IMG/VR virus record: IMGVR_UViG_3300026519_000642
Location: 1-48,228 of that record
Direction: 5' to 3' (one strand)
Length of the DNA stretch: 48,228 bases
DNA from: a virus
The notes under the pieces are model-generated. The model worked only from the letters and a program-made list of their open reading frames with translations, was not told where the DNA came from and did no database searches. Positions 2,015 through 38,077 of this stretch are shown here, one piece after another. Position 1 is the first letter of the stretch. The number at the start of each line of letters is the position of its first letter. The position numbers were made by a program, and so were the translations under genes.

Positions 2015-3010
2015 ATGCATTCTCAACATCTAACTGGCTCAGAAAAGCAAACGTTATGGGCTGATAAAATCAGAGCAGATAAATTTGCATTGATTGAAAA
2101 GGCCTATAACGAGAATCTTGACAATATTGATATGGATGCCTACTGGGGTAACGCAATGTCACTAGATGACAAACGCATCGGCCACGCCATTACCTTGCTC
2201 AAAAAACAGACATCAGCATCCTGGTGGATTGACAACCGCGATAGAAAAATAAGCAATATTTTGGTTGAATTGTTTATCCAGCAGCCAAAACAACCAAACA
2301 GAATAGATGATTGTCAGCTTGAAATACAGGCAGCGATTGAGGCCACTGTCAGACCAGAATCACCAGAAACAGAAACCGTTGCCGAAATCAGGCCGCTTTC
2401 TGACAGAATAACTGTTCATTTCCATGAGAAATTAGAAAAATTCAGACTGATTATGCGCAAACATGGGTTCACATGGTCAGAGTTTTATTGGGAAAGTCAA
2501 CTCAACGCCAGAAATGGCAGCGTTCAGAATCGCGCAGCCGAAATTGGTCATACATTACTCGCTAACGGATTCATCATTCGTATTTACAATGAATCTATTC
2601 GTCAGGCAGCTATCAGTGGAACATATCAAGAAGAACAAACCCGCTGGATCAGTGTTTATACGACAGGCAGTAATAAGGGGAATATGTGCATCTCATGGAG
2701 CATAGACGAAGATTATTATCGCGCTGCAAAATCACTACCTACTGCAAAATATGTAAAACCTCATATCGCTGTTGATATTGAGCATTTTGAAGATATTCTC
2801 GATTTTGCTGAAATAAACGGATTTTCAATCAGCGATGCTGCACAGAACGCTATCGATGCTGCAAAACAAATCAAAGAAAAATCATTGGTTGTACATATAG
2901 AGCCTGTAGAGCCTGTAGAGACTGAACAGCGCATAAAGATGAGCGACAAACCTGAAAAATTAGCCGTTCCTGATGACGTTGATATTAATGATGAATTACT
3001 CGATGAATGA
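2015..3010 (+). CDS. Helicase-associated protein with N-terminal LTGSEKQ motif (331 aa)
   Basis: A 331-aa protein. The N-terminus (LTGSEKQTLWADKIRADKF) resembles a short conserved motif that I associate with phage and plasmid proteins encoded next to helicases; it is followed by a helical region with two Trp pairs (SASWWIDN). Residues 140-250 form a mixed domain with FHEKLEKFRLIMRKHGFTW. The C-terminal 40 residues are acidic and probably disordered. Its stop overlaps the start of the SNF2-type helicase gene, so the two are translationally coupled and likely work together, perhaps with this protein as a DNA- or partner-binding subunit. That role is inferred from position only. Base composition is noticeably less AT-rich than the preceding genes, suggesting a separate origin. 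Confidence 0.6.
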   Translation: MHSQHLTGSEKQTLWADKIRADKFALIEKAYNENLDNIDMDAYWGNAMSLDDKRIGHAITLLKKQTSASWWIDNRDRKISNILVELFIQQPKQPNRIDDCQLEIQAAIEATVRPESPETETVAEIRPLSDRITVHFHEKLEKFRLIMRKHGFTWSEFYWESQLNARNGSVQNRAAEIGHTLLANGFIIRIYNESIRQAAISGTYQEEQTRWISVYTTGSNKGNMCISWSIDEDYYRAAKSLPTAKYVKPHIAVDIEHFEDILDFAEINGFSISDAAQNAIDAAKQIKEKSLVVHIEPVEPVETEQRIKMSDKPEKLAVPDDVDINDELLDE

Positions 3011-4454
3011 GTCTATTACAAAATTTAATGCGACAACGACGCTATTACCACATCAACAAGAGGCTGTTGCAAAACTGTTACCCACTCGTGTTGGCGCTTT
3101 ATTTATGGACATGGGCACTGGAAAGAGCCGCACAGCTATTGAACTGGCACGCATTAGACAAGAAAAAATAGACCGTGTAATCTGGTTATGCCCGGTTTCG
3201 CTGAAACAAACCATCAGACATGAAATCATTACACATACAGATTGCAATGATGATGATATTGTCGTTTTCGATAACAAAACCAACACACGAAACATACGAC
3301 AAGCAATCTGGTACATCATCGGCATAGAGTCTATCTCATCAAGCAGCCGCGTTGCATTGACAACGAATCATATTATTACCGAAAAATCTCTGGTCATTGT
3401 AGATGAATCGAGCTATATCAAAGGGCATCGATCCATGCGTACCCAGCGTATAACGCATTATGCTAAACGCGCTCGGTATCGAATGATTTTAACTGGGACA
3501 CCCATCAGCCAGGGTGTCGTTGATCTCTACGCACAAATGCGGTTTTTGTCACCAAAAATATTAGGCTATCGGTCATTTTATTCATTTGCCAATAACCATT
3601 TGGAATACTCTGCACGTCATAAAGGGCTAATTGTAGATAGTCACAATACAGAATGGATAGCCGCCAAAATACACCCATACATTTACCAGGTCACTAAGGA
3701 CGAATGCCTGAATCTGCCTGATAAACTCTATGAAAGTCGCTATTTTGAACTGAGCAGAGAGCAGCAAGACTACTATGATGAGATAAAAAAAGAACTGCTG
3801 CTAGAAATAGATATTGCAGACTTTACCAGCTATCTCATATTCCAGTTATTTACCGCATTGCAACAGATTAGCTGTGGATTTTTAAACCGAATCCGCACAG
3901 ATTACGCTGGGAATACAACTATTGAATTGATTGAAATGCGCAATGAACGACTGGAAATACTAATGGAAACTATTGACAGTATTCCGGCAACAGAAAAAAT
4001 AATCATCTGGGCAAAATATCGCTATGACATCCAGCAGATACACAAGACCTTGGTTGACGAATACGGCGAGGAATACTGCGCCCTGTTCTATGGCGATTTG
4101 AACGAAAAGCGCCGGGCGATTGAAATAGAAAATTTCCGACAATCGGCCAGATTCTTTATCGCCACACCCAGCTGCGGCGGATACGGATTGACACTCAACG
4201 AGGCGCGTACCGTTATTTTCTATAATAATGGATTCAAATATTCAGAACGCATCCAGGCAGAAGACCGCTGTCACCGCATTGGCCAAGAACATCGCGTAAC
4301 CTACATTGATATATGGAGCGATGCAGGCATTGATGGGAAAATCGAGCTGGCACTTGATAGTAAAAGCGATGCGGTGAGAGCATTTAAAGAAGAAGTCGAT
4401 AAAATCAAAGCCACAAATAAAGAAAATTTAAAAGAAATGATAAAAAAACTGTAA
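3003..4454 (+). CDS. SNF2/DEAD-like helicase (483 aa)
   Basis: A superfamily 2 ATPase of the SNF2 type that should translocate on double-stranded DNA using ATP. Visible motifs are the Q-like LLPHQQEAV (14-22), Walker A MDMGTGKSRT (35-44), motif Ia WLCPVS (61-66), motif II DESSYIKG (134-141), motif III LTGTPISQ (163-170), and in the second RecA-like lobe motif V-like YGLTLNEA and motif VI RCHRIGQ (422-428). All active-site elements look intact. The ATG at 3003 overlaps the upstream stop; an in-frame ATG at 2973 is less likely. Compact SNF2 helicases are common in phages, where roles in replication restart, recombination or DNA modification are proposed. It is followed by a promoter and then the IbrA/GNAT/IbrB genes. 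Confidence 0.9.
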   Translation: MNESITKFNATTTLLPHQQEAVAKLLPTRVGALFMDMGTGKSRTAIELARIRQEKIDRVIWLCPVSLKQTIRHEIITHTDCNDDDIVVFDNKTNTRNIRQAIWYIIGIESISSSSRVALTTNHIITEKSLVIVDESSYIKGHRSMRTQRITHYAKRARYRMILTGTPISQGVVDLYAQMRFLSPKILGYRSFYSFANNHLEYSARHKGLIVDSHNTEWIAAKIHPYIYQVTKDECLNLPDKLYESRYFELSREQQDYYDEIKKELLLEIDIADFTSYLIFQLFTALQQISCGFLNRIRTDYAGNTTIELIEMRNERLEILMETIDSIPATEKIIIWAKYRYDIQQIHKTLVDEYGEEYCALFYGDLNEKRRAIEIENFRQSARFFIATPSCGGYGLTLNEARTVIFYNNGFKYSERIQAEDRCHRIGQEHRVTYIDIWSDAGIDGKIELALDSKSDAVRAFKEEVDKIKATNKENLKEMIKKL

Positions 4455-4460
4455 AAAAAC

Positions 4461-4489
4461 TTGCAGATAAGGAAATAATTTCCTACAAT
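4461..4489 (+). promoter_or_regulatory. Promoter with a palindromic operator in its spacer
   Basis: TTGCAG (4461-4466), 17 bases, TACAAT (4484-4489). The spacer contains the perfect palindrome GGAAATAATTTCC (4471-4483), ending next to the -10 box, where a bound repressor would block polymerase. It would drive the interrupted gene at 4564 and the genes from 5111 onward. A second GC-rich imperfect repeat (CCCCTAGGATGGG) lies in the leader at 4516-4528. Confidence 0.6.
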
Positions 4490-4563
4490 AACCACAACGG
4501 ATTAGGAAATAGCCCCTAGGATGGGAGGCAACAACCATTAACACAGATTAAGAGGTCATCAAA

Positions 4564-5070
4564 ATGAACTACATAGAAGAACTGACAAAAATACATATTT
4601 CAATCATGCAATTCAGAAAAAAACTGGATGGCATAGATTCTGTTATAGAGCAGGAAGCTATGGAAATTTTAAAATAGGCAAACAAAGTTGTAGCGCCATG
4701 CCTCAAGTCACACGGTGAATATAATTATTTATTTCGTGCAGCTTGTGATAAATATCATGAGATATACAAGGATTTCTGTGACAGGATGGATGGCAATGGC
4801 GAATACACAGAGGATGAAACTGTCCATATTGAAACTTGTTTAGACAATATGGATGTTAGCGTGACCGTTGTTGAGCGAGGAATAGACTATGTCACTAGCG
4901 AAGACTGTCGTGGAAAATTCATTATGAGCGCGACAAGCAGAGATTTTAATCAAGATGCAAAATTATTGGATGTAACTCTAAATGAGGCATTTGAAATAAT
5001 AAAATCTCATCGAGTTAGTGAGTTTAAAGTTATTCCTTATATGGCTAATGAATTTGCTGGTGATGAGTAA
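4564..5070 (+). pseudogene. Gene interrupted by an in-frame amber codon
   Basis: From ATG 4564 the frame reads 37 codons, meets TAG at 4675-4677, then stays open in the same frame to TGA at 5068-5070 (168 positions in all). Both parts look coding: a helical N-terminus (MNYIEELTKIHISIMQFRKK), then LFRAACDKYHEIYKDFCDRM and a well-formed acidic C-terminal half with no second defect. A one-base C-to-T change of a Gln codon would explain it. TAG ends other genes here normally, so general recoding is unlikely. Translation may restart at ATG 4786, giving a 94-aa protein. The family is not recognised. The start has a ribosome site (AGAGG) upstream. Confidence 0.65.
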
Positions 5071-5110
5071 TGACAAAATGCCGCAAGGACGCGGCAATCT
5101 ATAAAAAGCT

Positions 5111-6424
5111 ATGTCAAAAATATATATCAAAAAAAACGTCTTACAGGCCATGCAAAAACGCTTGGAATACATCTTTAACGAATTTGACAACATTTATGTT
5201 GCATTCTCAGGCGGAAAGGATTCCGGTTTACTGCTAAATCTCACGCTCAAATACATGCGTGAGAACAACATCTCCCGCAAAATCGGAGTGATGCACATGG
5301 ACTACGAAGCTCAGTACACTGTCACAAACGAATACGTTGACCTTACCTTGTCATCAAATCATGATCTGATAGAGCCGTTTTGGCTATGCCTGCCTATGTC
5401 TGTGCCTTGTACCACATCCATGCATCAATCCGCATGGATACCCTGGAATCCAGAAGAAAAAGACATCTGGGTTAGAGACATGCCAAATCATGACTACGTG
5501 ATAAACCTGGAAAATCATCATTTTGACTGGTACGAACAGGGCATGATTGATTACAACGTTCAAAACAAATTCTTAAAATGGTATCACCAGCGGCAAGGTG
5601 GCGGAAAGACCTGCTGTCTGGTCGGTATTCGTACCCAAGAGAGTTTGCACCGATTTACCGCTATCGTGAATAAGCAGGATATGCACGATGGCAAAATCTG
5701 GACAACCAATGCATGGAAAAACATGTGCGCGGCCTATCCACTCTACGACTGGGAAGTGGATGACATTTGGACAGCCAATGCCAAGTTTGGTTTTGACTAT
5801 AACAAAATCTATGACTTGATGCACTATGCAGGCATAAAACCACATAATATGCGGGTGGCCAGTCCGTTTCTTGGAACCGCTCAAGAGTCATTAAACCAGT
5901 ACCGGATTATTGAGCCAAAAACGTGGGGTAGACTCATTGGCCGTGTCAATGGCGCAAACTTCACCGCGATTTATGGTGGCACAAAAGCTATGGCTTTTAA
6001 AAAAATAACATTGCCAAAAGATCACACATGGAAAAGTTATCTTGAGTTCCTGTTGAACACACTGCCTGAAGACACTCGTAACAAATACCTGGAAAAATTT
6101 AATTCCAGCATTAAATACTGGACAGAAAAAGGTGGAGCAGTTGATGTTGAAACAGTCAAAGAACTTCGCGCGGTGAATGCTCAGTTAGAATACCTTGGTA
6201 AACCACAAAATAATCGAAACTATAAAACGGAAAAAGGATTTGTCCGGTTTAAAGAATACCCGGACGATATGGAAATAGATGATTTCCAGTCTGTTCCATC
6301 ATACAAACGCATGTGCATCTGCATCATGAAAAACGATTATGCATGTCAATATATGGGATTCAAATTGACCAAGGCCGACATGCAACGGCGCAAAGCGGCC
6401 ATTGCCAAATATAAAGACATATAG
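5111..6424 (+). CDS. ibrA: IbrA-like PAPS-reductase-fold protein (437 aa)
   Basis: A member of the adenine-nucleotide alpha-hydrolase/PAPS-reductase fold, with the P-loop-like SGGKDSG at residues 33-39 (YVAFSGGKDSGLLL), a following HMDYEAQY strand, and the large C-terminal extension typical of DUF3440/IbrA proteins. Family members bind ATP or PAPS and typically adenylate a substrate or act on sulfur; the exact reaction of IbrA proteins is not established. In E. coli, IbrA and IbrB together stimulate expression of immunoglobulin-binding eib genes. Here the IbrB-type gene is two genes downstream, with a GNAT-like gene between. The gap to the next gene is only nine bases, so they form an operon. 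The many Trp and Cys residues in the C-terminal part may bind metal. Confidence 0.85.
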   Translation: MSKIYIKKNVLQAMQKRLEYIFNEFDNIYVAFSGGKDSGLLLNLTLKYMRENNISRKIGVMHMDYEAQYTVTNEYVDLTLSSNHDLIEPFWLCLPMSVPCTTSMHQSAWIPWNPEEKDIWVRDMPNHDYVINLENHHFDWYEQGMIDYNVQNKFLKWYHQRQGGGKTCCLVGIRTQESLHRFTAIVNKQDMHDGKIWTTNAWKNMCAAYPLYDWEVDDIWTANAKFGFDYNKIYDLMHYAGIKPHNMRVASPFLGTAQESLNQYRIIEPKTWGRLIGRVNGANFTAIYGGTKAMAFKKITLPKDHTWKSYLEFLLNTLPEDTRNKYLEKFNSSIKYWTEKGGAVDVETVKELRAVNAQLEYLGKPQNNRNYKTEKGFVRFKEYPDDMEIDDFQSVPSYKRMCICIMKNDYACQYMGFKLTKADMQRRKAAIAKYKDI

Positions 6425-6433
6425 AGATGAACC

Positions 6434-6844
6434 ATGATTAAACGTTTTGAGCAAGGCAATAAAAAAACAGATAACAAATTATACTGCTTGATCGGCAAAC
6501 CGGCAATTGATCCTAAAATTCACAATGAACTGGGTGTTGCATTAACAGGTATAGATGATGATATATGGTATCTATGGCTGGATGAAATGGGAACATTATT
6601 TGGTTTCTGTCAGATGCGTATATTGAAAAATAAAAAAGCACATATCAGGTTCTTATATGCCGATAAATTGGGAATAAAAATACGTACAGAACTGATTGAA
6701 TGGGCACTGACTGATGCCAGAAAAAATGACTGTACATTGATATATACAAATGACCGTGAAACCGCAGGGATTTGGAAATTATTTAACTTTAAAACAAGAG
6801 AGAAAAAGCGCGGTTCATTTGTGCGCTGGGAGAAAACACTATGA
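6434..6844 (+). CDS. GNAT-like acyltransferase (136 aa)
   Basis: A 136-aa protein with the outline of a small GNAT N-acyltransferase: a central strand pair (DIWYLWLDEMGTLFGFCQMRI), a strand (AHIRFLYADK) at the position of the acetyl-CoA loop strand, a helix, then a strand (DCTLIYTNDRETAGIWKLFNF) that matches the GNAT motif B. The usual QxxGxG/A loop is not clear (DKLGIKIRTELIEWAL fills that place), so assignment is by fold pattern. It sits between ibrA-like and ibrB-like genes, overlapping the latter by four bases (ATGA). GNAT proteins in phages can modify DNA bases (Mom of phage Mu) or proteins; the substrate here is unknown. Confidence 0.65.
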   Translation: MIKRFEQGNKKTDNKLYCLIGKPAIDPKIHNELGVALTGIDDDIWYLWLDEMGTLFGFCQMRILKNKKAHIRFLYADKLGIKIRTELIEWALTDARKNDCTLIYTNDRETAGIWKLFNFKTREKKRGSFVRWEKTL

Positions 6845-7374
6845 CCAGTCCAGTCTATAACGTTAGGCCAGTACATTTGGAAAAAGTACGTGCCAATGCA
6901 TATAACCCCAATGCAGTCGCACCACCAGAAATGAAACTGCTGGAAAAATCCATCTGGGAAGATGGCTATACTATGCCCATCGTCTGCTACTACATCGAAG
7001 ATGTAGACATCTACGAGATTGTTGATGGTTTCCATCGCTATACCATCATGAAAACATGCAAGAAAATCCGTGACCGTGAAAATGGCATGTTGCCGGTTGT
7101 CGTGATAGATAAGGACATAAACAACCGCATGGCCAGCACCATCCGTCACAACCGAGCCAGAGGCACACACTCCATTGATCTAATGGTAAACATTGTGTCC
7201 GAACTCACTGAATCAGGCATGTCTGACGAATGGATATGCAAAAACATCGGCATGGATGCTGACGAAATACTCAGGTTAAAGCAAATCAGCGGCCTAGCTG
7301 CATTATTCAAAGATAACAGCTTTTCAAAAGCATGGGTAAAAAACACAGAAGAAGAGGATTTTTATAATGATTAA
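6841..7374 (+). CDS. ibrB: IbrB-like ParB/sulfiredoxin-fold protein (177 aa)
   Basis: A ParB N-terminal-domain protein: VRANAYNPNAVAPPEMKLLEKSI (written here only as a region, residues 17-39), then the strand IYEIVDGFHRYTIM with the conserved G-H-R box at VDGFHRYT (61-68), and an RHNRARGTHS segment near residue 110. This layout matches IbrB-type proteins, which carry the ParB-like nucleotide-binding fold without a partition role. Some members of the fold are CTPases or nucleases, but the activity of IbrB is not known. It overlaps both neighbours by four to eight bases, so it is co-translated with the GNAT-like and 177-aa genes. The C-terminal helix bundle may be a DNA-binding tail. Confidence 0.85.
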   Translation: MTSPVYNVRPVHLEKVRANAYNPNAVAPPEMKLLEKSIWEDGYTMPIVCYYIEDVDIYEIVDGFHRYTIMKTCKKIRDRENGMLPVVVIDKDINNRMASTIRHNRARGTHSIDLMVNIVSELTESGMSDEWICKNIGMDADEILRLKQISGLAALFKDNSFSKAWVKNTEEEDFYND

Positions 7375-7900
7375 TATAGCAGTAGGTAAGCCCTATCCAT
7401 TGCCAATCAACGCCAGCACAGACGAAGGAGGAGCGGCAGTTCAATTTTTAACAAAGTCAGGCAATACCCTGCAAATCGTATTGCCTGGAATGAACAAATC
7501 TGAAGAACAGGCGTTGAAAAAAGGAAAAATGAAAGCCGGATTTCTCTATAAAAATGGCGACATGCTATGGCTATTTAGACTATACGACAGAAAAAACAAA
7601 CCACTGCTCACTCTAGATGCTCCGTTTGATATAAGAATACTGCCGCTTGAACAGCAAGCGTTGCACTCTATTACTAACGATCAGCAGAGGCTTGTTATTG
7701 ATGTTCATGGAATTGATGAAAACCGGATTGTGAGAACACTAAGAGCAATTACATTGCCCAATGAACTGACAATTTTATTTTTATCCTCTGTTCAAAAACA
7801 ACTGACTAGCAACAAACATAATGTCGCTATGCCATTTTGGATAAAACAACATCCTGAATCATTAACAAAAAAGACAAAAATGTTCACGCTAGGTCTATGA
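7367..7900 (+). CDS. Unknown protein linked to the IbrA/IbrB operon (177 aa)
   Basis: A 177-aa, mostly beta-strand protein with no recognised family. Residues 1-75 are strand-rich (GGAAVQFLTKSGNTLQIVL; GFLYKNGDMLWLFRLYD); later residues include FDIRILPLE and LVIDVHGID. No signal peptide or membrane segment. Its start lies eight bases before the stop of the IbrB-like gene and its stop overlaps the start of the HTH gene at 7897, so it belongs to the same tightly packed operon. Its job is probably tied to the IbrA/GNAT/IbrB proteins, but that rests on position only. Confidence 0.65.
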   Translation: MINIAVGKPYPLPINASTDEGGAAVQFLTKSGNTLQIVLPGMNKSEEQALKKGKMKAGFLYKNGDMLWLFRLYDRKNKPLLTLDAPFDIRILPLEQQALHSITNDQQRLVIDVHGIDENRIVRTLRAITLPNELTILFLSSVQKQLTSNKHNVAMPFWIKQHPESLTKKTKMFTLGL

Positions 7901-8109
7901 AACCCGATTCAACAAAACACAACCCAGACCCAGAATATTTGCGTGAACTGGTAAAAAAAACAGGGCTTAGTCAACGCAAAATTGCCAGAATTATAGGTGT
8001 AAATGAGCGGTTATTTAGAATGTATCTGGCAAACAGGAGTGCAAGTACAGCACATGATGCGCCTTATACTGTGCAGTTTACATTAGAATGTTTATCAGAT
8101 GAATCATAG
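7897..8109 (+). CDS. Small HTH protein closing the IbrA/IbrB operon (70 aa)
   Basis: A 70-aa DNA-binding protein with a Cro/C1-type helix-turn-helix at residues 16-42 (LVKKTGLSQRKIARIIGVNE, then a recognition helix with RLFRMYLANR). It overlaps the previous gene in ATGA fashion and is the last gene of the operon. A regulator translated last is often autoregulatory; a candidate site is the palindrome GGAAATAATTTCC in the operon promoter, but that pairing is a guess. Confidence 0.7.
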   Translation: MKPDSTKHNPDPEYLRELVKKTGLSQRKIARIIGVNERLFRMYLANRSASTAHDAPYTVQFTLECLSDES

Positions 8110-17265: not shown

Positions 17266-19263
17266 GTGTCAATTGCTAGAATATTAAGCAATCAAGGAAA
17301 TGGGCTTTATTCAATAGAGATTATTAAAAATAATGTTTATATAATTGCCAAGAAAAATAGACTTGAAATCACAAAATCTGAACTTTATCAAACGCAACTT
17401 ATTTTAGAAAATAAGCTTGATAGTTTAAATTTATTGCTCAAAACAATAAATTCATTATTAAATCAGGCAATACTTACTGATATAGAAGATTTAATTAGTA
17501 AACGAGTTTCACAAAGAAATATCATTTTGAATGATATTGTTAATCAAAAAGAAAAATTAGAACGTCATTATTTTAGACAATCAGAAGTTGAGTCTGAGCT
17601 TAATCTCATCAATAATTACGAACAAGAAACAATATTGGCAGAAGCTTGGTGTGTAGACTACACACTTAACATGAGTGATTATGTTGAAGTTGCAAATATA
17701 AGAGATGAACCGAATGGTCCTATAAATTTATTACCCGTTTTTGATTCAAATATTGAAAATCTTAAAACAAAAATAACGAAAGCAGGAAGGTTATATAACT
17801 CACTCGGTAATCCAAAGAATTTGCCAAAAATATCTCAAGTTGAACATGTATTAAATTCTAAACCTTGGTCAATTTTGTACAACTTGATATTAATGCCGGT
17901 AGCACAGCGGTGGAGACCTATGTTCAGAATAGGAAAAATAACTTATTTTAACAGTCAAAAATCAAAATGTAACATAACATATCAAAATGAACCGCAATTT
18001 AGTAGTGTTTTGCCGTTTCCGAAGGGGTTTGATTTCGTAGGTGGTAATAGTAGATATAATATTCAAATAAATGTTGCAGAAACGAATGTTAAAATTGATT
18101 ACATGGGATGTTCTGGTTCTGTTTTTTCAATTAATGACAGAGTAGTTGTTGAGTATAAAAAAAGAAATTTAGATGTGCCGGTTGTAATCGGTTTCGCAGA
18201 CAATCCAAGAAGATGTAAGTCAATAATATTAGCGTACATTAAAAATAATAAACTTGTTTGGCAAGAAATAACAAAAATTGGTCAATTTTTACCTGGGACT
18301 GTTAGCCATGAATTAAATGAAACAAGCTCATCGATATTAAACAATACAGAAACACATTCAAAAAGAATGGGGTATTGTTATAGAATTTCAGTTAACGATG
18401 TAACAAAAAAAGAAATTATTGATGTTTATACATATAAAAAAGACAGTATTTTAAAAAATGGTATTGAATTAATTGGTCCATCATTTTTTAATAATTTAAA
18501 AATAAATATAGCATTTCCCGACGAACAACCTGAATTTAAAATAGCGTTTAATAATATCATTGGATTATTTTATGATGGTGAATTTGTATGGTCTGTTTGT
18601 TTTACTAATCATATAAGAAGGGAAAAACCTTACGCTAAAAAATACGAATTTTATAATACAGGAACATTACAGCAGGATTACTTGTGGTGGGGATTTGGTG
18701 AATATACAGGATTAAGATTATTAAAGTTTGATCCAGAAACATTAGAGCATCAGGGTAATTTTTTTGATGTTCCATTGGCTCCAATAATAAAAGCAGAATA
18801 TGCAGGAAATTTGTCATCTGGAACATCATTAGGAATAAAATTTTTTTATTTTAATGACTATAATTTTGATTTCAATTTGGATTATAGTAAGCCCGGACAA
18901 AACGGCGGTCTTTTAACTAAAACGTCCGCAGCACATGGCGGTGCTAATTCTACTAAAGATGTAAGCAAGTTATTTGGATTTGATTATTCTAATGATTATT
19001 TATCAATGTGCTTTTCAACTCGACCGAGCAATGTTTTTGATCAGCCAACTTTGGCACTACATGAGATGGTTATTGATATTAAAGAACAAAAAGCTATTAG
19101 TCATAAATGGAAAATATCAAGTTCAATCTCACCATCAAATGATATATTTGGAAATTTTTTCCCATCAGAAAAATCAACTGATTCAAATAGCAGTGTTGGT
19201 GAGTTAACTATTGCCGGAATACTGTCAGCGATAGAGGAGCAAACTGATTTTATTTATATATGA
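17266..19263 (+). CDS. Tail tip/hub protein (665 aa)
   Basis: A 665-aa protein starting at GTG 17266. Residues 35-130 form a helical, probably coiled-coil, region (ESELNLINNYEQETILAEAW), then a long strand-rich part containing a barrel-like stretch (ITYQNEPQFSSVLPFP to VPVVIGFADNPRRCKSIILA) that resembles the OB-fold of hub proteins. The rest is rich in Asn, Ser and aromatic residues. It begins one base after the previous stop and overlaps the next start. It is probably the tip complex scaffold; the family assignment is by place and composition. Confidence 0.55.
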   Translation: MSIARILSNQGNGLYSIEIIKNNVYIIAKKNRLEITKSELYQTQLILENKLDSLNLLLKTINSLLNQAILTDIEDLISKRVSQRNIILNDIVNQKEKLERHYFRQSEVESELNLINNYEQETILAEAWCVDYTLNMSDYVEVANIRDEPNGPINLLPVFDSNIENLKTKITKAGRLYNSLGNPKNLPKISQVEHVLNSKPWSILYNLILMPVAQRWRPMFRIGKITYFNSQKSKCNITYQNEPQFSSVLPFPKGFDFVGGNSRYNIQINVAETNVKIDYMGCSGSVFSINDRVVVEYKKRNLDVPVVIGFADNPRRCKSIILAYIKNNKLVWQEITKIGQFLPGTVSHELNETSSSILNNTETHSKRMGYCYRISVNDVTKKEIIDVYTYKKDSILKNGIELIGPSFFNNLKINIAFPDEQPEFKIAFNNIIGLFYDGEFVWSVCFTNHIRREKPYAKKYEFYNTGTLQQDYLWWGFGEYTGLRLLKFDPETLEHQGNFFDVPLAPIIKAEYAGNLSSGTSLGIKFFYFNDYNFDFNLDYSKPGQNGGLLTKTSAAHGGANSTKDVSKLFGFDYSNDYLSMCFSTRPSNVFDQPTLALHEMVIDIKEQKAISHKWKISSSISPSNDIFGNFFPSEKSTDSNSSVGELTIAGILSAIEEQTDFIYI

Positions 19264-22343: not shown

Positions 22344-22825
22344 TTAGTATTCCTCCAGTTGCCATATTTTTTATAATCAAACAAATGAAGTGAATTGTTA
22401 TCTACATGTTTTTCCCAATCTTTCCTGAATTTTATTGCGGTTTTAAACGCTAACGCGGCCAGATTCACGCTAAACTCTTCAATCCTTCCAAACGGAAAAG
22501 CTTGCGTGTGTTTTTTTCCTTTATAGTCAATCCAGCTGACTGCATAGACCAGGTAGGTTAGTCCCCTTTTTTTGTAATGCCGCTGTGTTTGGCAGACGCC
22601 TAGAACGCCAGTTGATCTATTGTTTTTTGCATGTTCAATCATCCTTTTTTTTGGCAAAACAAGCATCATTTGGTCGCGGTAATTTTGCGCTGCCTTTAAC
22701 GCCTTTTTTTTGCTGCCCCATAATTTGTAAGAGAAATACCGGCTTTTTTCAGTGCCTTTTCTAACAATTCTGACTTGAAACCCGTTTTTGTCTGGCTGTG
22801 TGATGTTTTTTAATGATTGATTCAT
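22340..22825 (-). CDS. AP2-domain DNA-binding protein (161 aa)
   Basis: A 161-aa basic protein with two AP2-like DNA-binding repeats: GFQVRIVRKGTEKSRYFSYK with LWGSKKKALKAAQNYRD, and a second starting RSTGVLGVCQTQRHYKKRG with TYLVYAVSWIDYKGKKHTQ and LAALAFKTAIKFRKDWE. AP2 domains in phages occur in integrase- or homing-nuclease-linked proteins and bind DNA. The ATG at 22825 overlaps the integrase stop (TAATG), so it is translated with the integrase and may assist recombination, possibly as a directionality or accessory factor. That role is inferred. Confidence 0.7.
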   Translation of the reverse strand: MNQSLKNITQPDKNGFQVRIVRKGTEKSRYFSYKLWGSKKKALKAAQNYRDQMMLVLPKKRMIEHAKNNRSTGVLGVCQTQRHYKKRGLTYLVYAVSWIDYKGKKHTQAFPFGRIEEFSVNLAALAFKTAIKFRKDWEKHVDNNSLHLFDYKKYGNWRNTN

Positions 22826-23841
22826 TAAATATCTAAATCCCCTGGGTCCAGGTTTGCATAGCGTTTTAATGTGTTCCATGAACTATGCAGTGTGACTTGT
22901 TGCACCTCGACAATACTTAATCCGCGTTCAAATAATCGGCTAGTGGCCTCGTGTCGTAAATCGTGCATCCTTAAATCTTTAATATTGAGTAGTCGGCATG
23001 CGTTTGTAAAATAAGTGCTGATGGTTCTGGCATTGTAAGGAAATATTTTTTTATCAATTTTAGGTTGTTTAATGACTATTTTATAAGCACTTTTTGACAA
23101 TTTAAAGCGTTTTTTAATGCCTTTTTTCCTTGGGTCTTTCATGTTTTTTAACAGGCATGTTTTATTATCGTGGTTAATGTCGTTCCATTCAAGCCTCATA
23201 ATTTCACTCTCGCGCCTGGCTGAATAAATGGCAAACCACATAATGTGCAGCATTGGAATTGTTTTTTGTGTGTCATAAAAATAGCGTGATAATTGCCAAA
23301 GCTCCTCTTTTGTCGGTCGTCTGTCTCGATGACTTGATTTTGCAATCAGCCCTTCTGTTCTTAGAATTTCTCGCGCTTTGTCGAAAATGGTTAAATCTAC
23401 GCTAATATCTAAAATTCCTGACATGGTTTTAATCACGCCATTTAGCCAGATCAAATCATTGGTAGCTGTTTGCGGCTGGCACTCTGTATTTCTAATTCTG
23501 ATGTGGCGTATTAAATCCCTCTCATTTAATTTGTTAACATCTATTTTTGCAATATCGCGGGTCATTAATTTATTAAGATCAAAGTTTTTTGATCGGCCGC
23601 TAGGCGAGAATTCTTTTAAATACGAAGCTATGACTTTTTTTATTGGCAAGTAGTCTTTTTTTTTGTAAATAGTTTGCTCTTGTAATTCAAGCTCGCGTCG
23701 AATCGCCCAGTCTTTTGCTAGTTTGCGCTTACTAAAACTTTTTTTCTCTCTGTGTACGATTTGACTGTGCTTTCTAATTTTTATTGATGCGTCATAAATA
23801 ATGCTACCATCTGCCTTTAGTCTTTTTGTTATAGATGCCAT
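22825..23841 (-). CDS. int: Tyrosine integrase, DusA-type (338 aa)
   Basis: A 338-aa tyrosine recombinase. Catalytic residues are visible: R210 (SARRESEI), a candidate K near 232-235, H293 and R296 (HDLRHE), H319 (TLHSSW) and nucleophile Y328 (LKRYANL). The N-terminal 60 residues are a basic arm-binding region (MASITKRLKADGSIIYDASI), followed by a core-binding helical domain. Next to the gene is an attP that contains the start of dusA, which indicates integration into the tRNA-dihydrouridine synthase gene of the host. The length is a little below the 380-400 aa typical of the family. It has the convergent tail gene downstream, and is followed by the AP2 protein. Confidence 0.95.
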   Translation of the reverse strand: MASITKRLKADGSIIYDASIKIRKHSQIVHREKKSFSKRKLAKDWAIRRELELQEQTIYKKKDYLPIKKVIASYLKEFSPSGRSKNFDLNKLMTRDIAKIDVNKLNERDLIRHIRIRNTECQPQTATNDLIWLNGVIKTMSGILDISVDLTIFDKAREILRTEGLIAKSSHRDRRPTKEELWQLSRYFYDTQKTIPMLHIMWFAIYSARRESEIMRLEWNDINHDNKTCLLKNMKDPRKKGIKKRFKLSKSAYKIVIKQPKIDKKIFPYNARTISTYFTNACRLLNIKDLRMHDLRHEATSRLFERGLSIVEVQQVTLHSSWNTLKRYANLDPGDLDI

Positions 23842-30828: not shown

Positions 30829-31623
30829 TTAAATTTCGCCGGCTTGCCAAACAACCTGGCCGATCACATCAATATTTTCTCTAAATTCTGTATCAGTGGC
30901 AATTTCTTCTGGAAATATAGTGTTGTCTGATTTCATGATAATACCACCATCAAATCTATTATATAGTCGTTTTATTTTCAGCTCTTTTTTGTATTTTATG
31001 CAATATATTTTGCCGTCATTTATTTCAATTTCTCCTTTGTTTATTAAAAGAAGTGCTCCGTCTTTAATGGTTTCTCTCATTGAATCGCCAGAAAATTCAA
31101 TACAAACCAGATTTGATTTTTTAAACCCTTTCTTCTTTAACCAGTCTGATTTAAAAGCAAAACTCCCGGCTTTATTATTATTAATCACAATTTCTCCATT
31201 TTCTTTAGATAGTGAAATAACTACCCTGGGAACAATGGCATAGGCACCATTAGGTAAATATTCTGCATTGTCCCATTCAACTATACTTTGTGTTTTTAAA
31301 TCATCCGTTGACATCTCTTTTATAGTTATTTTTCCTTTTATGTCTTTATTAATAAACGAATCTAATTCTGGCTTTATTTGGCCGGGATTACAGCCAAGGA
31401 ATTTGGAAAATTTTAAAATTGTGCTGTCATTAAGTGCGACCTTGCCGTTTAAATATTGACTAATGGCCCCTTGTGTTTCAAATCCCAATTGTTCTGCGGC
31501 CCTTTCTTGTGTTAATTTTTTGCCTTTTTGCCTCCATTCTTGCTTTTTTTTATTCCATATTTTTTTGAGATTATCAGCATATTTTTTTTGCGCGATGGTT
31601 AGCGGTGTTCTCTGTATTTTCAT
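30829..31623 (-). CDS. CI-type repressor with S24 peptidase domain (264 aa)
   Basis: A 264-aa repressor. Residues 36-63 form the HTH (KLTQERAAEQLGFETQGAIS, then QYLNG). The C-terminal S24 domain shows an AG cleavage site (KAGSFAF, Ala152-Gly153), the nucleophile Ser181 (SGDSM) and Lys218 (KIKRL), 37 residues apart as in LexA and CI. It should keep the prophage silent and self-cleave when RecA is activated by DNA damage. Its transcript is predicted to start at or within a few bases of its ATG (31623). Confidence 0.95.
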   Translation of the reverse strand: MKIQRTPLTIAQKKYADNLKKIWNKKKQEWRQKGKKLTQERAAEQLGFETQGAISQYLNGKVALNDSTILKFSKFLGCNPGQIKPELDSFINKDIKGKITIKEMSTDDLKTQSIVEWDNAEYLPNGAYAIVPRVVISLSKENGEIVINNNKAGSFAFKSDWLKKKGFKKSNLVCIEFSGDSMRETIKDGALLLINKGEIEINDGKIYCIKYKKELKIKRLYNRFDGGIIMKSDNTIFPEEIATDTEFRENIDVIGQVVWQAGEI

Positions 31624-36211: not shown

Positions 36212-38077
36212 ATGCCTGCGGTAATAACAAAAACTATCAAACCTGCTGGCGGCGGTGATTTTACGTCTATAGCTGCGTTCATTGCTGCTATACCGGCTGA
36301 TATGGTAGCTGTTGATGAAAAATGGGTGGGCGAGTGTTCAGGAGGTGGTGAGACCATAACATCTACGACTGACCTAACTGGCATAACAACGAGCAGGGTA
36401 ACGGACAATATTGTCGTTATACGCGCAGCATCAGGCAGTGAAGCAATGCCGGATGGAACCGGGTACTTCATTACTTGTAATTCAAACTATCGCTATTGTC
36501 TGCGCGTAAGGGCGGTTGATTGTGACGTAGAAGGACTGGGCGCAAAATCTAACGCATCCTCAAACGTGACTGGGTTTGGCGGAAATATTACTGCGTCATT
36601 TAAACCCCGGTTTTATGATTGCGTAGCTATTGACTGTAGAAATGGGAATACGTCAATATACGCAAAAGGATTTGAGTCAAAACGCCACTCATTTTATAAT
36701 TGTATTGCTATCAATTGCACATTTGGATTTTCCACATCAAATGACTGGTACGGAATAAACACACACAACTGCATAGCTAAAGATTGCCCTACAGGGTTTT
36801 TAGTCAAGAACGGGGCAAGCTCTGGCAGTCAATCATCAGAGTTAATAAACTGCGTAGCTTACAACTGCACAACACCATGGACTATAGGCAGCGGTCTTTC
36901 TAGCGCATCAACAAACAATGCAGCGTCAGACGCAGCAACAAATACACCGCCAGGATCATCTCCACTTACAACTAACGTAACGTCTAGTGATTTCGTAGAC
37001 GTTGCTAACAATGATTTTCATTTAACAGCAGCGTCAATACTTAAGGATTCAGGTAGCAATACTGGCTACTCTCCAGATTTTGATGGAGTTGCTAGAGATG
37101 CGACGTACGACATCGGGCCTTTTGAATTTGTTGGAGGTGGTAGCGTAGGCGTTTCAGGAGATTTATCTGGTATTGAATCAAATACTGATTCATTTTTATC
37201 GTCAGGAAATTTATCTAGTGGTATTTCTGGTAATTTATCAGCAACAGAAACAAGTAGTGATTTATTTTCTGTTATTGGCACACTATTAATTTCTGGAGAT
37301 TTATCTGCACTAGAGCTAAATGATTCATTTAATGCGTCTGGTGCGGCGGATACAACTGGAAATTTAGCCACTTCTGAATTATCGACTGATTTACTTAATA
37401 GCACTGGATTTATTGCAAATGCTGGCAGCTTGTCTGCTTCAGAAACAGGGACAGATTCATTTTTGGCAGATGCTAATGTAATTATTTCTGGTGATGTTGT
37501 TGTTAATGAGCCTGCAACAGATACAGCATTAATAACAGGTTCAAATTCGGTTCTCGGTAGTTTATCAATAACTGAAAATTCAACTGATTTGTTGTCGTCT
37601 GTTGGCCAGTTATTAATCAATGGAAGTTTCGGTGCAACTGAATTAAATAGCGATAGTTTTTTAGTCACTGGAAATATTTTAATTGAAGGTGATTTTTTAA
37701 CAACCGAGCAATCAACTGATTCGCTTTTATCAAACGGCAGTGCGGCAACACTTGGAACGTTAAACGTTAGTGAATCAAATAATGATTCATTGTCTGCAAC
37801 CGGAACGGTCATTACTAATGGCAACGTTGATGTAATTGAAAATAGTTCAGATGTTTTTGTTTCGTCAGGTGAAAACAAAATACAGGGTGTTTTTCTTTCT
37901 ACAGAAGCCTGGCTAGATTTATTTCAAATAAACGGTGTTATTGCAACCGGCGGTCAGGTCAATATAACAGAGACGGAAACGGATTTATTTGCAGCAGGAA
38001 TCATTCAGCTTCAAGCAGTTGATTTTAAAAATGCTATTTTTGTAAATAGTGTTAATACAACATTTTATAATCGATGA
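36212..38077 (+). CDS. Tail appendage: beta-helix domain plus short repeats (621 aa)
   Basis: A 621-aa appendage. Residues 5-305 form a parallel beta-helix like that of pectate lyases: GGGDFTSIAAFIAAI, many NC or DC turns (FYDCVAIDCRNGN; FYNCIAINCTFGF; INTHNCIAKDCPTGF; LINCVAYNCTTP) and a closing DGVARDATYDIGPFEF. Residues 310-610 are about eleven units of 24-27 residues with G-L---E---D-F---G (for example GDLSATESS-like and LNISENSTDLLSSVG-like; one is GSLSITENSTDLLSSVGQLL). It probably binds or cleaves a surface polysaccharide; no catalytic residues are clear. It overlaps the next gene by four bases. Confidence 0.7.
   Translation: MPAVITKTIKPAGGGDFTSIAAFIAAIPADMVAVDEKWVGECSGGGETITSTTDLTGITTSRVTDNIVVIRAASGSEAMPDGTGYFITCNSNYRYCLRVRAVDCDVEGLGAKSNASSNVTGFGGNITASFKPRFYDCVAIDCRNGNTSIYAKGFESKRHSFYNCIAINCTFGFSTSNDWYGINTHNCIAKDCPTGFLVKNGASSGSQSSELINCVAYNCTTPWTIGSGLSSASTNNAASDAATNTPPGSSPLTTNVTSSDFVDVANNDFHLTAASILKDSGSNTGYSPDFDGVARDATYDIGPFEFVGGGSVGVSGDLSGIESNTDSFLSSGNLSSGISGNLSATETSSDLFSVIGTLLISGDLSALELNDSFNASGAADTTGNLATSELSTDLLNSTGFIANAGSLSASETGTDSFLADANVIISGDVVVNEPATDTALITGSNSVLGSLSITENSTDLLSSVGQLLINGSFGATELNSDSFLVTGNILIEGDFLTTEQSTDSLLSNGSAATLGTLNVSESNNDSLSATGTVITNGNVDVIENSSDVFVSSGENKIQGVFLSTEAWLDLFQINGVIATGGQVNITETETDLFAAGIIQLQAVDFKNAIFVNSVNTTFYNR

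Follow-up and report, generated by a model that had tools for sequence, protein, structure and literature searches.

The question raised by the virus record IMGVR_UViG_3300026519_000642 is what a compact cassette at positions 2015-8109, in which a DNA translocase lies beside genes of the IbrA, GNAT and IbrB types, might do for a phage. The window analysed here is the whole record of 48,228 bases, which carries the gene set of a temperate phage. By comparing the neighbourhoods of the cassette genes with those of their relatives, five genes are found to form one conserved module, gpA-SNF2-IbrA-GNAT-IbrB, that is found again in many unrelated viruses and in some bacterial chromosomes. In the window, this core consists of gpA, the helper of the SNF2 motor (2015-3010, 331 residues, phrog_16123); the SNF2-family DNA translocase (2973-4454, 493 residues, recognised by Pfam, PHROG and its motifs); IbrA, a predicted PP-loop ATPase with a DUF3440 C-terminal part (5111-6424, 437 residues); the GNAT-fold protein (6434-6844, 136 residues, recognised from its predicted structure); and IbrB, with a ParB/sulfiredoxin-type domain and a C-terminal helical part (6841-7374, 177 residues). 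The SNF2, IbrA, GNAT-like and IbrB genes reported in a preliminary description of this DNA are confirmed in position, all on the plus strand. The same description counted seven tightly packed genes; the tight packing holds, in that the genes overlap or nearly abut, but there are eight open reading frames (ORFs), and a gap of 331 base pairs separates SNF2 from the ORF at 4786-5070.

The conservation of the module is seen most directly in the neighbourhoods, which were scored with profiles built in this analysis; each scan took the best 80 loci per query and is thus a sample of relatives near the query. With IbrA as the starting point, IbrB was present in 78 of 79 viral or phage loci, the exception being a contig end; with IbrB as the starting point, IbrA lay nearby in 74 of 74 newly fetched loci. 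Among 78 newly fetched loci with the window-type SNF2, both IbrA and IbrB were present in 76; of the remaining two, one is a sequence that stops 152 bases past SNF2, and L456 is either a genuine exception or a variant. Similarly, gpA was found with SNF2, IbrA and IbrB in 74 of 80 loci, and several of the other six end just past gpA or SNF2. For the window-type GNAT, a single-sequence search of viral sequences gave no relatives and a tblastn search of 50,697 phage records gave no match; a six-member profile found six loci, three of which (L010, L011 and L163) were already in the collected set. In all six the gene lies between IbrA and IbrB, and it was found nowhere else. As to whether the genes occur independently of each other, which the preliminary description had proposed to check, IbrA and IbrB are inseparable, whereas SNF2/gpA and GNAT are missing from many IbrA-IbrB loci; the window's own SNF2, gpA and GNAT subfamilies, on the other hand, are hardly ever seen without IbrA-IbrB.

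Another finding is that the core genes are fused to one another in various combinations. A single ORF in locus L281 joins IbrA (7-411) to GNAT (447-568), one ORF each in L294 and L306 contains SNF2 and GNAT, IbrB (52-211) is joined to IbrA (230-539) in L304, and gpA and SNF2 form one ORF in five loci (L422, L425, L429, L432 and L435). Somewhere among the loci, then, each core gene shares an ORF with one or more of the others, and this is the best evidence for joint action of the products. From the fusions, GNAT is predicted to touch both IbrA and SNF2 directly. The earlier suggestion of one pathway is thus strongly supported by reciprocal co-occurrence, by the kept order and by fusions linking all core components, and we are highly confident that gpA, SNF2, IbrA, GNAT and IbrB act together. 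Since the genes are found together, and sometimes fused, across unrelated viruses and chromosomes, they probably encode one molecular machine. A tally of neighbours by Pfam and PHROGs showed no recurrent partner outside this set.

What kind of enzyme might IbrA be? It matches DUF3440 (PF11922) at 5e-83 (277.8 bits, cut-off 25) and PAPS_reduct (PF01507) at 2.8e-10 (40.9 bits, cut-off 22.5), and its closest relative is 74% identical. In an alignment of 45 IbrA sequences, window included, the PP-loop motif S(G/C)GKDS is kept in 44, among them the window IbrA, and many polar residues are invariant. The catalytic motif of PAPS reductase, ECGxH, is present in 0 of these 45 sequences. In an AlphaFold2 model built on 45 relatives (predicted local distance difference test score, pLDDT, 85.8), residues 1 to approximately 265 best match FAD synthase (Z 15.7; root-mean-square deviation, rmsd, 3.5; 183 residues aligned), followed by CysD (Z 15.0, rmsd 3.3, 172 aligned) and APS reductase (Z 14.7, rmsd 4.6, 196 aligned), in a search that tested mainly this part and covered the C-terminal part poorly. 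All three are enzymes that handle adenylated intermediates. The model suggests that IbrA is a PP-loop ATPase of the PAPS-reductase/CysD/FAD-synthase group without the PAPS-reductase motif. Further structural matches are the PP-loop enzymes TilS, TtuA and NcsA, and NCBIfam gave weak TilS and TtcA matches; a sequence search of solved structures returned only weak or chance-like matches for IbrA and for GNAT. In addition, C93 is kept in 45 of the 45 aligned sequences, C402 in 44, and C404 and C412 in 36 each; all four cysteines occur together in 97 of 192 IbrA sequences, and they may form a redox or sulfur site.

The partner of IbrA is very conserved, IbrB being 65-79% identical to relatives in distant hosts, compared with 41-56% for the IbrA relatives other than the closest. 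IbrB matches phrog_2159 ('ParB-like') at 3.9e-81. It differs from the canonical ParB partition proteins, whose motif is GERR: this motif is found in 0 of 41 IbrB sequences, whereas DGxHR is found in 41 of 41, in the window as DGFHR. Over approximately residues 7-75, profile matches were obtained to the nucleoid occlusion protein Noc (1.8e-4) and to the free serine kinase SerK (0.014), the latter with a model match of 4e-4. By its motif, its profile matches and its adjacency to IbrA, IbrB is assigned to the ParB/sulfiredoxin superfamily.

The GNAT gene matches its family by sequence at only 0.026. Its label in the preliminary description was weak on this basis and is borne out by the predicted structure: a model built on 31 relatives (pLDDT 90.6) shows a complete GNAT fold, with 5jph_A as the best match (Z 15.1, rmsd 2.2, 127 residues aligned). 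In a search of viral structures made with a link to the DNA-modification protein Mom of phage Mu in question, only generic GNAT entries appeared among the matches listed. The six window-type GNATs, at 36-53% identity, share 19 invariant residues, many of them polar, including H30, D43, K65, H70, R72, D107, R108 and R126. Given that the acetyl-CoA loop is missing, this degree of invariance suggests a working but unusual active site.

The SNF2 protein matches SNF2-rel_dom at 1.7e-18 and Helicase_C at 2.2e-13 in Pfam and phrog_62 at 2.7e-101, and the helicase motifs GTGKS, DES, TGTP and QAEDRCHRIGQ are all present without damage. Among PADLOC profiles, it matches ZorD (1.4e-37), DpdE (5.5e-25) and also DrmD; no nuclease domain was recognised by Pfam or PADLOC on SNF2 or elsewhere among the cassette proteins. 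Most relatives of gpA have an additional N-terminal Cys-rich, zinc-ribbon-like stretch, which the window gpA does not have. Two proteins were seen beside SNF2 in other loci. A protein of 107 residues, c4 (phrog_5809; e.g., L017:1558-1872), lies directly upstream of a short-type SNF2 in about 23 viral loci, and a protein of 290 residues, which may be an inactive helicase-like subunit, is encoded between SNF2 and an IbrA of reduced length (approximately 372 residues) in L250, L254, L265, L285, L288, L290, L295, L297 and L300.

The composition of the module varies between loci. Among 192 non-redundant IbrA loci, some of which are truncated at contig ends, SNF2 was found in 105, a further protein termed c3 in 42, GNAT in 35, and SNF2 together with c3 in 1. 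GNAT may stand upstream of IbrA, downstream of it, or fused, and a FastTree tree of IbrA shows at least 13 changes between presence and absence of GNAT, which indicates that the association recurs. The c3 protein has 140 residues (e.g., L070:270-692 and L106:6398-6790) and adjoins IbrA in 74 of 75 c3 loci; it may replace the motor, and its near exclusion with SNF2 is partly confounded by kinship, as the tree shows only 4 changes for c3. Near IbrA, c3-type loci also carry a separate ORF of 85-93 residues (L067:1266-1523, L025:3184-3438, L070:628-906 and others) with kinship to the C-terminal tail of DUF3440 (PSYKxxCxxIxKND), as if the tail domain had been duplicated into its own protein; a split or frameshifted IbrA gene was considered for these loci and rejected, the small ORF being a separate protein. 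In the c3-type loci L053, L066, L067 and L070, an exonuclease-like or Cas4-like protein, c19 (phrog_298, phrog_1706), is encoded between IbrA and IbrB. In Fusobacterium phage phiFN37 (L005), a few genes separate IbrA-IbrB-SNF2 from a second ParB-like gene, which is paired with a queuine tRNA-ribosyltransferase homologue, possibly two modification modules side by side.

Part of the cassette has also moved between phages. The phage L010 shares exactly the stretch from IbrA through the helix-turn-helix gene (window 5116-8093) at 67% DNA identity, and its flanking genes are unrelated to those of the window. This block comprises IbrA, GNAT, IbrB, the accessory ORF at 7367-7900 (177 residues, phrog_12389) and the small helix-turn-helix protein at 7897-8109 (70 residues, phrog_3865), both on the plus strand. 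Exchange of the block between unrelated phages is thus observed, and since L010 shares only this part and no SNF2, the block is transferred as a whole, without the motor. That the cassette was acquired, as proposed in the preliminary description, is supported by this approximately 3-kilobase (kb) block being all that the two phages have in common.

Considering these results together, our preferred reading, held with a little less than even confidence, is that gpA, SNF2, IbrA, GNAT and IbrB are subunits of a single enzyme that modifies DNA. Here we infer the target, the chemistry, the order of the steps and the benefit alike. IbrB would bind DNA, probably in a nucleotide-dependent manner, and mark or load a site; SNF2, with its helper gpA, would translocate along or remodel the duplex and so expose the target; IbrA would adenylate this target, activating it for substitution or sulfur transfer; and, in the versions that carry it, the GNAT-fold protein would add or pass on an acyl-type group. 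The benefit would probably be that phage DNA is shielded from host nucleases, or that it carries a mark altering gene expression. DNA as the target is favoured by the profile matches of SNF2 to ZorD and DpdE, which belong to DNA-acting systems. A bolder form of this reading, which we consider rather doubtful, is a motor-driven DNA hypermodification machine of an undescribed class, in which the PP-loop enzyme would activate a base or the backbone, a GNAT without the usual use of acetyl-CoA would complete a novel adduct, and the c3-type and helicase-less versions would be alternative forms.

Several observations weigh against DNA modification. SNF2 is missing in 87 of the 192 IbrA loci (some of them cut by contig ends), a search of the 48.6-kb L010 record gave no SNF2 match, and DNA translocation is therefore not essential to the core; Bacteroides chromosomes carry a three-gene GNAT-IbrA-IbrB operon without SNF2 beside ordinary genes. 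The canonical acetyl-CoA pyrophosphate loop (Q/RxxGxG/A) is absent from the window GNAT, and the pattern occurs in 3 of 31 relatives. Frequent substrates of PP-loop enzymes are tRNA and small molecules, the Pfam/PHROGs tally of neighbours brought out no recurrent partner for restriction or sulfur supply, and the IbrA/IbrB pair carries the annotation of co-activators of prophage gene expression.

The module may instead modify RNA or protein, or have a regulatory role. In the RNA case, which we consider unlikely, the PP-loop ATPase, an acyltransferase and the motor would modify RNA such as tRNA during infection, with IbrB as a nucleotide-binding partner and not a DNA clamp. The structural matches of IbrA to TilS, TtuA and NcsA, the weak TilS and TtcA matches in NCBIfam and the Bacteroides version without SNF2 are consistent with this, and the extreme conservation of IbrB across hosts would suit a universal target; however, a ParB-type protein, an SNF2 akin to those of DNA-acting systems and carriage by DNA phages point to DNA. 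Regulation without any chemical modification, with IbrA-IbrB, as the name implies, controlling prophage or host gene expression and SNF2 remodelling transcription complexes, has a similarly low probability: the small helix-turn-helix gene moves with the block, and the record annotation 'co-activator of prophage gene expression' has been reused (PMC4490671, PMC8813620), but the PP-loop of IbrA, intact in 44 of 45 sequences, and its many invariant polar residues are enzyme-like, and fusion to a GNAT is unusual for a pure regulator.

The resemblance of SNF2 to ZorD, DpdE and DrmD, the mobile accessory position and the temperate lifestyle, with an integrase and a CI-type repressor, would also fit anti-phage defence or counter-defence, by nucleotide depletion or attack on invader DNA and not by modification, and conflict systems are known in which ParB/Srx proteins are associated with nucleases and NTPases (PMC10853773, PMC12839542). 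We hold this improbable, no more so than the RNA and regulatory readings, as no nuclease domain is recognised in the window's cassette and the PADLOC matches among the cassette proteins are limited to SNF2, apart from weak DndC matches for IbrA. Far less probable still is auxiliary metabolism, with IbrA as a PAPS reductase boosting host sulfur assimilation and its neighbours as passengers. PHROG and many phage records do name IbrA a PAPS reductase, but the fusions, the obligate partner IbrB and the missing ECGxH speak against the idea, and on the missing motif and the obligate partners a role as PAPS reductase in sulfur metabolism was rejected.

The setting of the cassette in the genome adds some context. 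An integrase (22825-23841) and a CI-type repressor (30829-31623) are encoded on the minus strand; terminase, portal, scaffold and major head protein lie at 40.5-46.3 kb, tail genes at 11-21.7 kb and the tape measure at 14.2-16.9 kb. The preliminary description placed the cassette between head and tail genes, which is true only if the record is a permuted genome; no repeat was found at the record ends. The major head protein is closest to counterparts in Serratia, Sulfitobacter and Shewanella phages (approximately 50%), which suggests that the host is probably proteobacterial. Comparison of the first 25 kb with 50,697 phage records at the DNA level revealed no close relative. The cassette was also said to be less AT-rich than its neighbours. 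Its guanine-plus-cytosine (G+C) fraction at 2-8 kb is indeed 0.38-0.43, versus 0.28-0.33 in both flanks and 0.349 in the whole record, but the tail genes at 12-16 kb are equally G+C-rich, and composition alone is therefore weak evidence of acquisition. Between SNF2 and IbrA, a small plus-strand frame (4564-5070) contains an in-frame TAG at 4675-4677, its open 3' part being the ORF at 4786-5070; gene decay, an error in the sequence and a pair of short genes are all conceivable here, and the frame has no relative in the loci searched and stands outside the conserved module. Elsewhere in the window, the ORFs at 36212-38077 (621 residues) and 17266-19263 (665 residues) have no PHROG match at E 0.001.

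How does the module compare with known systems? It is one of the multi-subunit modules that resemble nucleic-acid modification systems. Its SNF2 matches ZorD of type I Zorya, but ZorA, ZorB and ZorC are absent from the cassette and the window SNF2 has no nuclease domain; it also matches DpdE of the Dpd 7-deazaguanine DNA modification system, but the cassette has neither the DpdA transglycosylase nor another Dpd protein. In the PADLOC scan, no Zorya, DISARM, Dpd or BREX partner was found among the eight cassette proteins besides SNF2, and DndD, DndE, SspB, SspC and a cysteine desulfurase were likewise not recognised. Phosphorothioation systems are built from a PAPS-reductase-like enzyme together with an ATPase and a protein that recognises DNA (PMC12707154); DndB, of the ParB superfamily, is a further component in many of them (PMC10853773, PMC12839542), and DndC has three 4Fe-4S cysteines and a cysteine dyad (PMC10853773). 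The Dnd/Ssp systems thus share with the module a PP-loop enzyme, an ATPase and a DNA-binding or ParB-superfamily protein, and IbrA weakly matches the DndC profile (2.4e-7). They differ in that the motor of the cassette is an SNF2 protein, a GNAT is added and IbrA is only distantly related to DndC; they may serve as an analogy for the mechanism, and, as the cassette lacks the partners DndD and DndE, membership in Dnd is not claimed.

The IbrA/IbrB pair of phage CHPC877 and others, and by annotation E. coli ybdN/ybdM, consists of the same two adjacent families, a DUF3440 PP-loop protein and a ParB-like protein, and the phage trio IbrA-IbrB-helicase is visible in public records. The literature on IbrA/IbrB, DUF3440, PAPS reductase with ParB, and ybdN/ybdM yielded annotation and expression data and no biochemistry. 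No published description of gpA, GNAT, the fusions or the module was found in a search that left most subscription papers outside, and computational work may already have mentioned IbrA/IbrB alongside genes for DNA modification. The known IbrA/IbrB records describe expression co-activators, and the papers found do not describe gpA, GNAT or the fusions; the pair itself was already known by annotation. IbrA-IbrB is widespread in phages and some chromosomes, and its place in a larger machine with a motor, a helper, a GNAT and several fusions replaces the vague name of 'co-activator' by an enzyme complex open to experiment. Should the machine turn out to modify DNA, it would add a new chemistry or another way of protecting phage DNA; a mark on RNA or protein would instead explain the old regulatory label.

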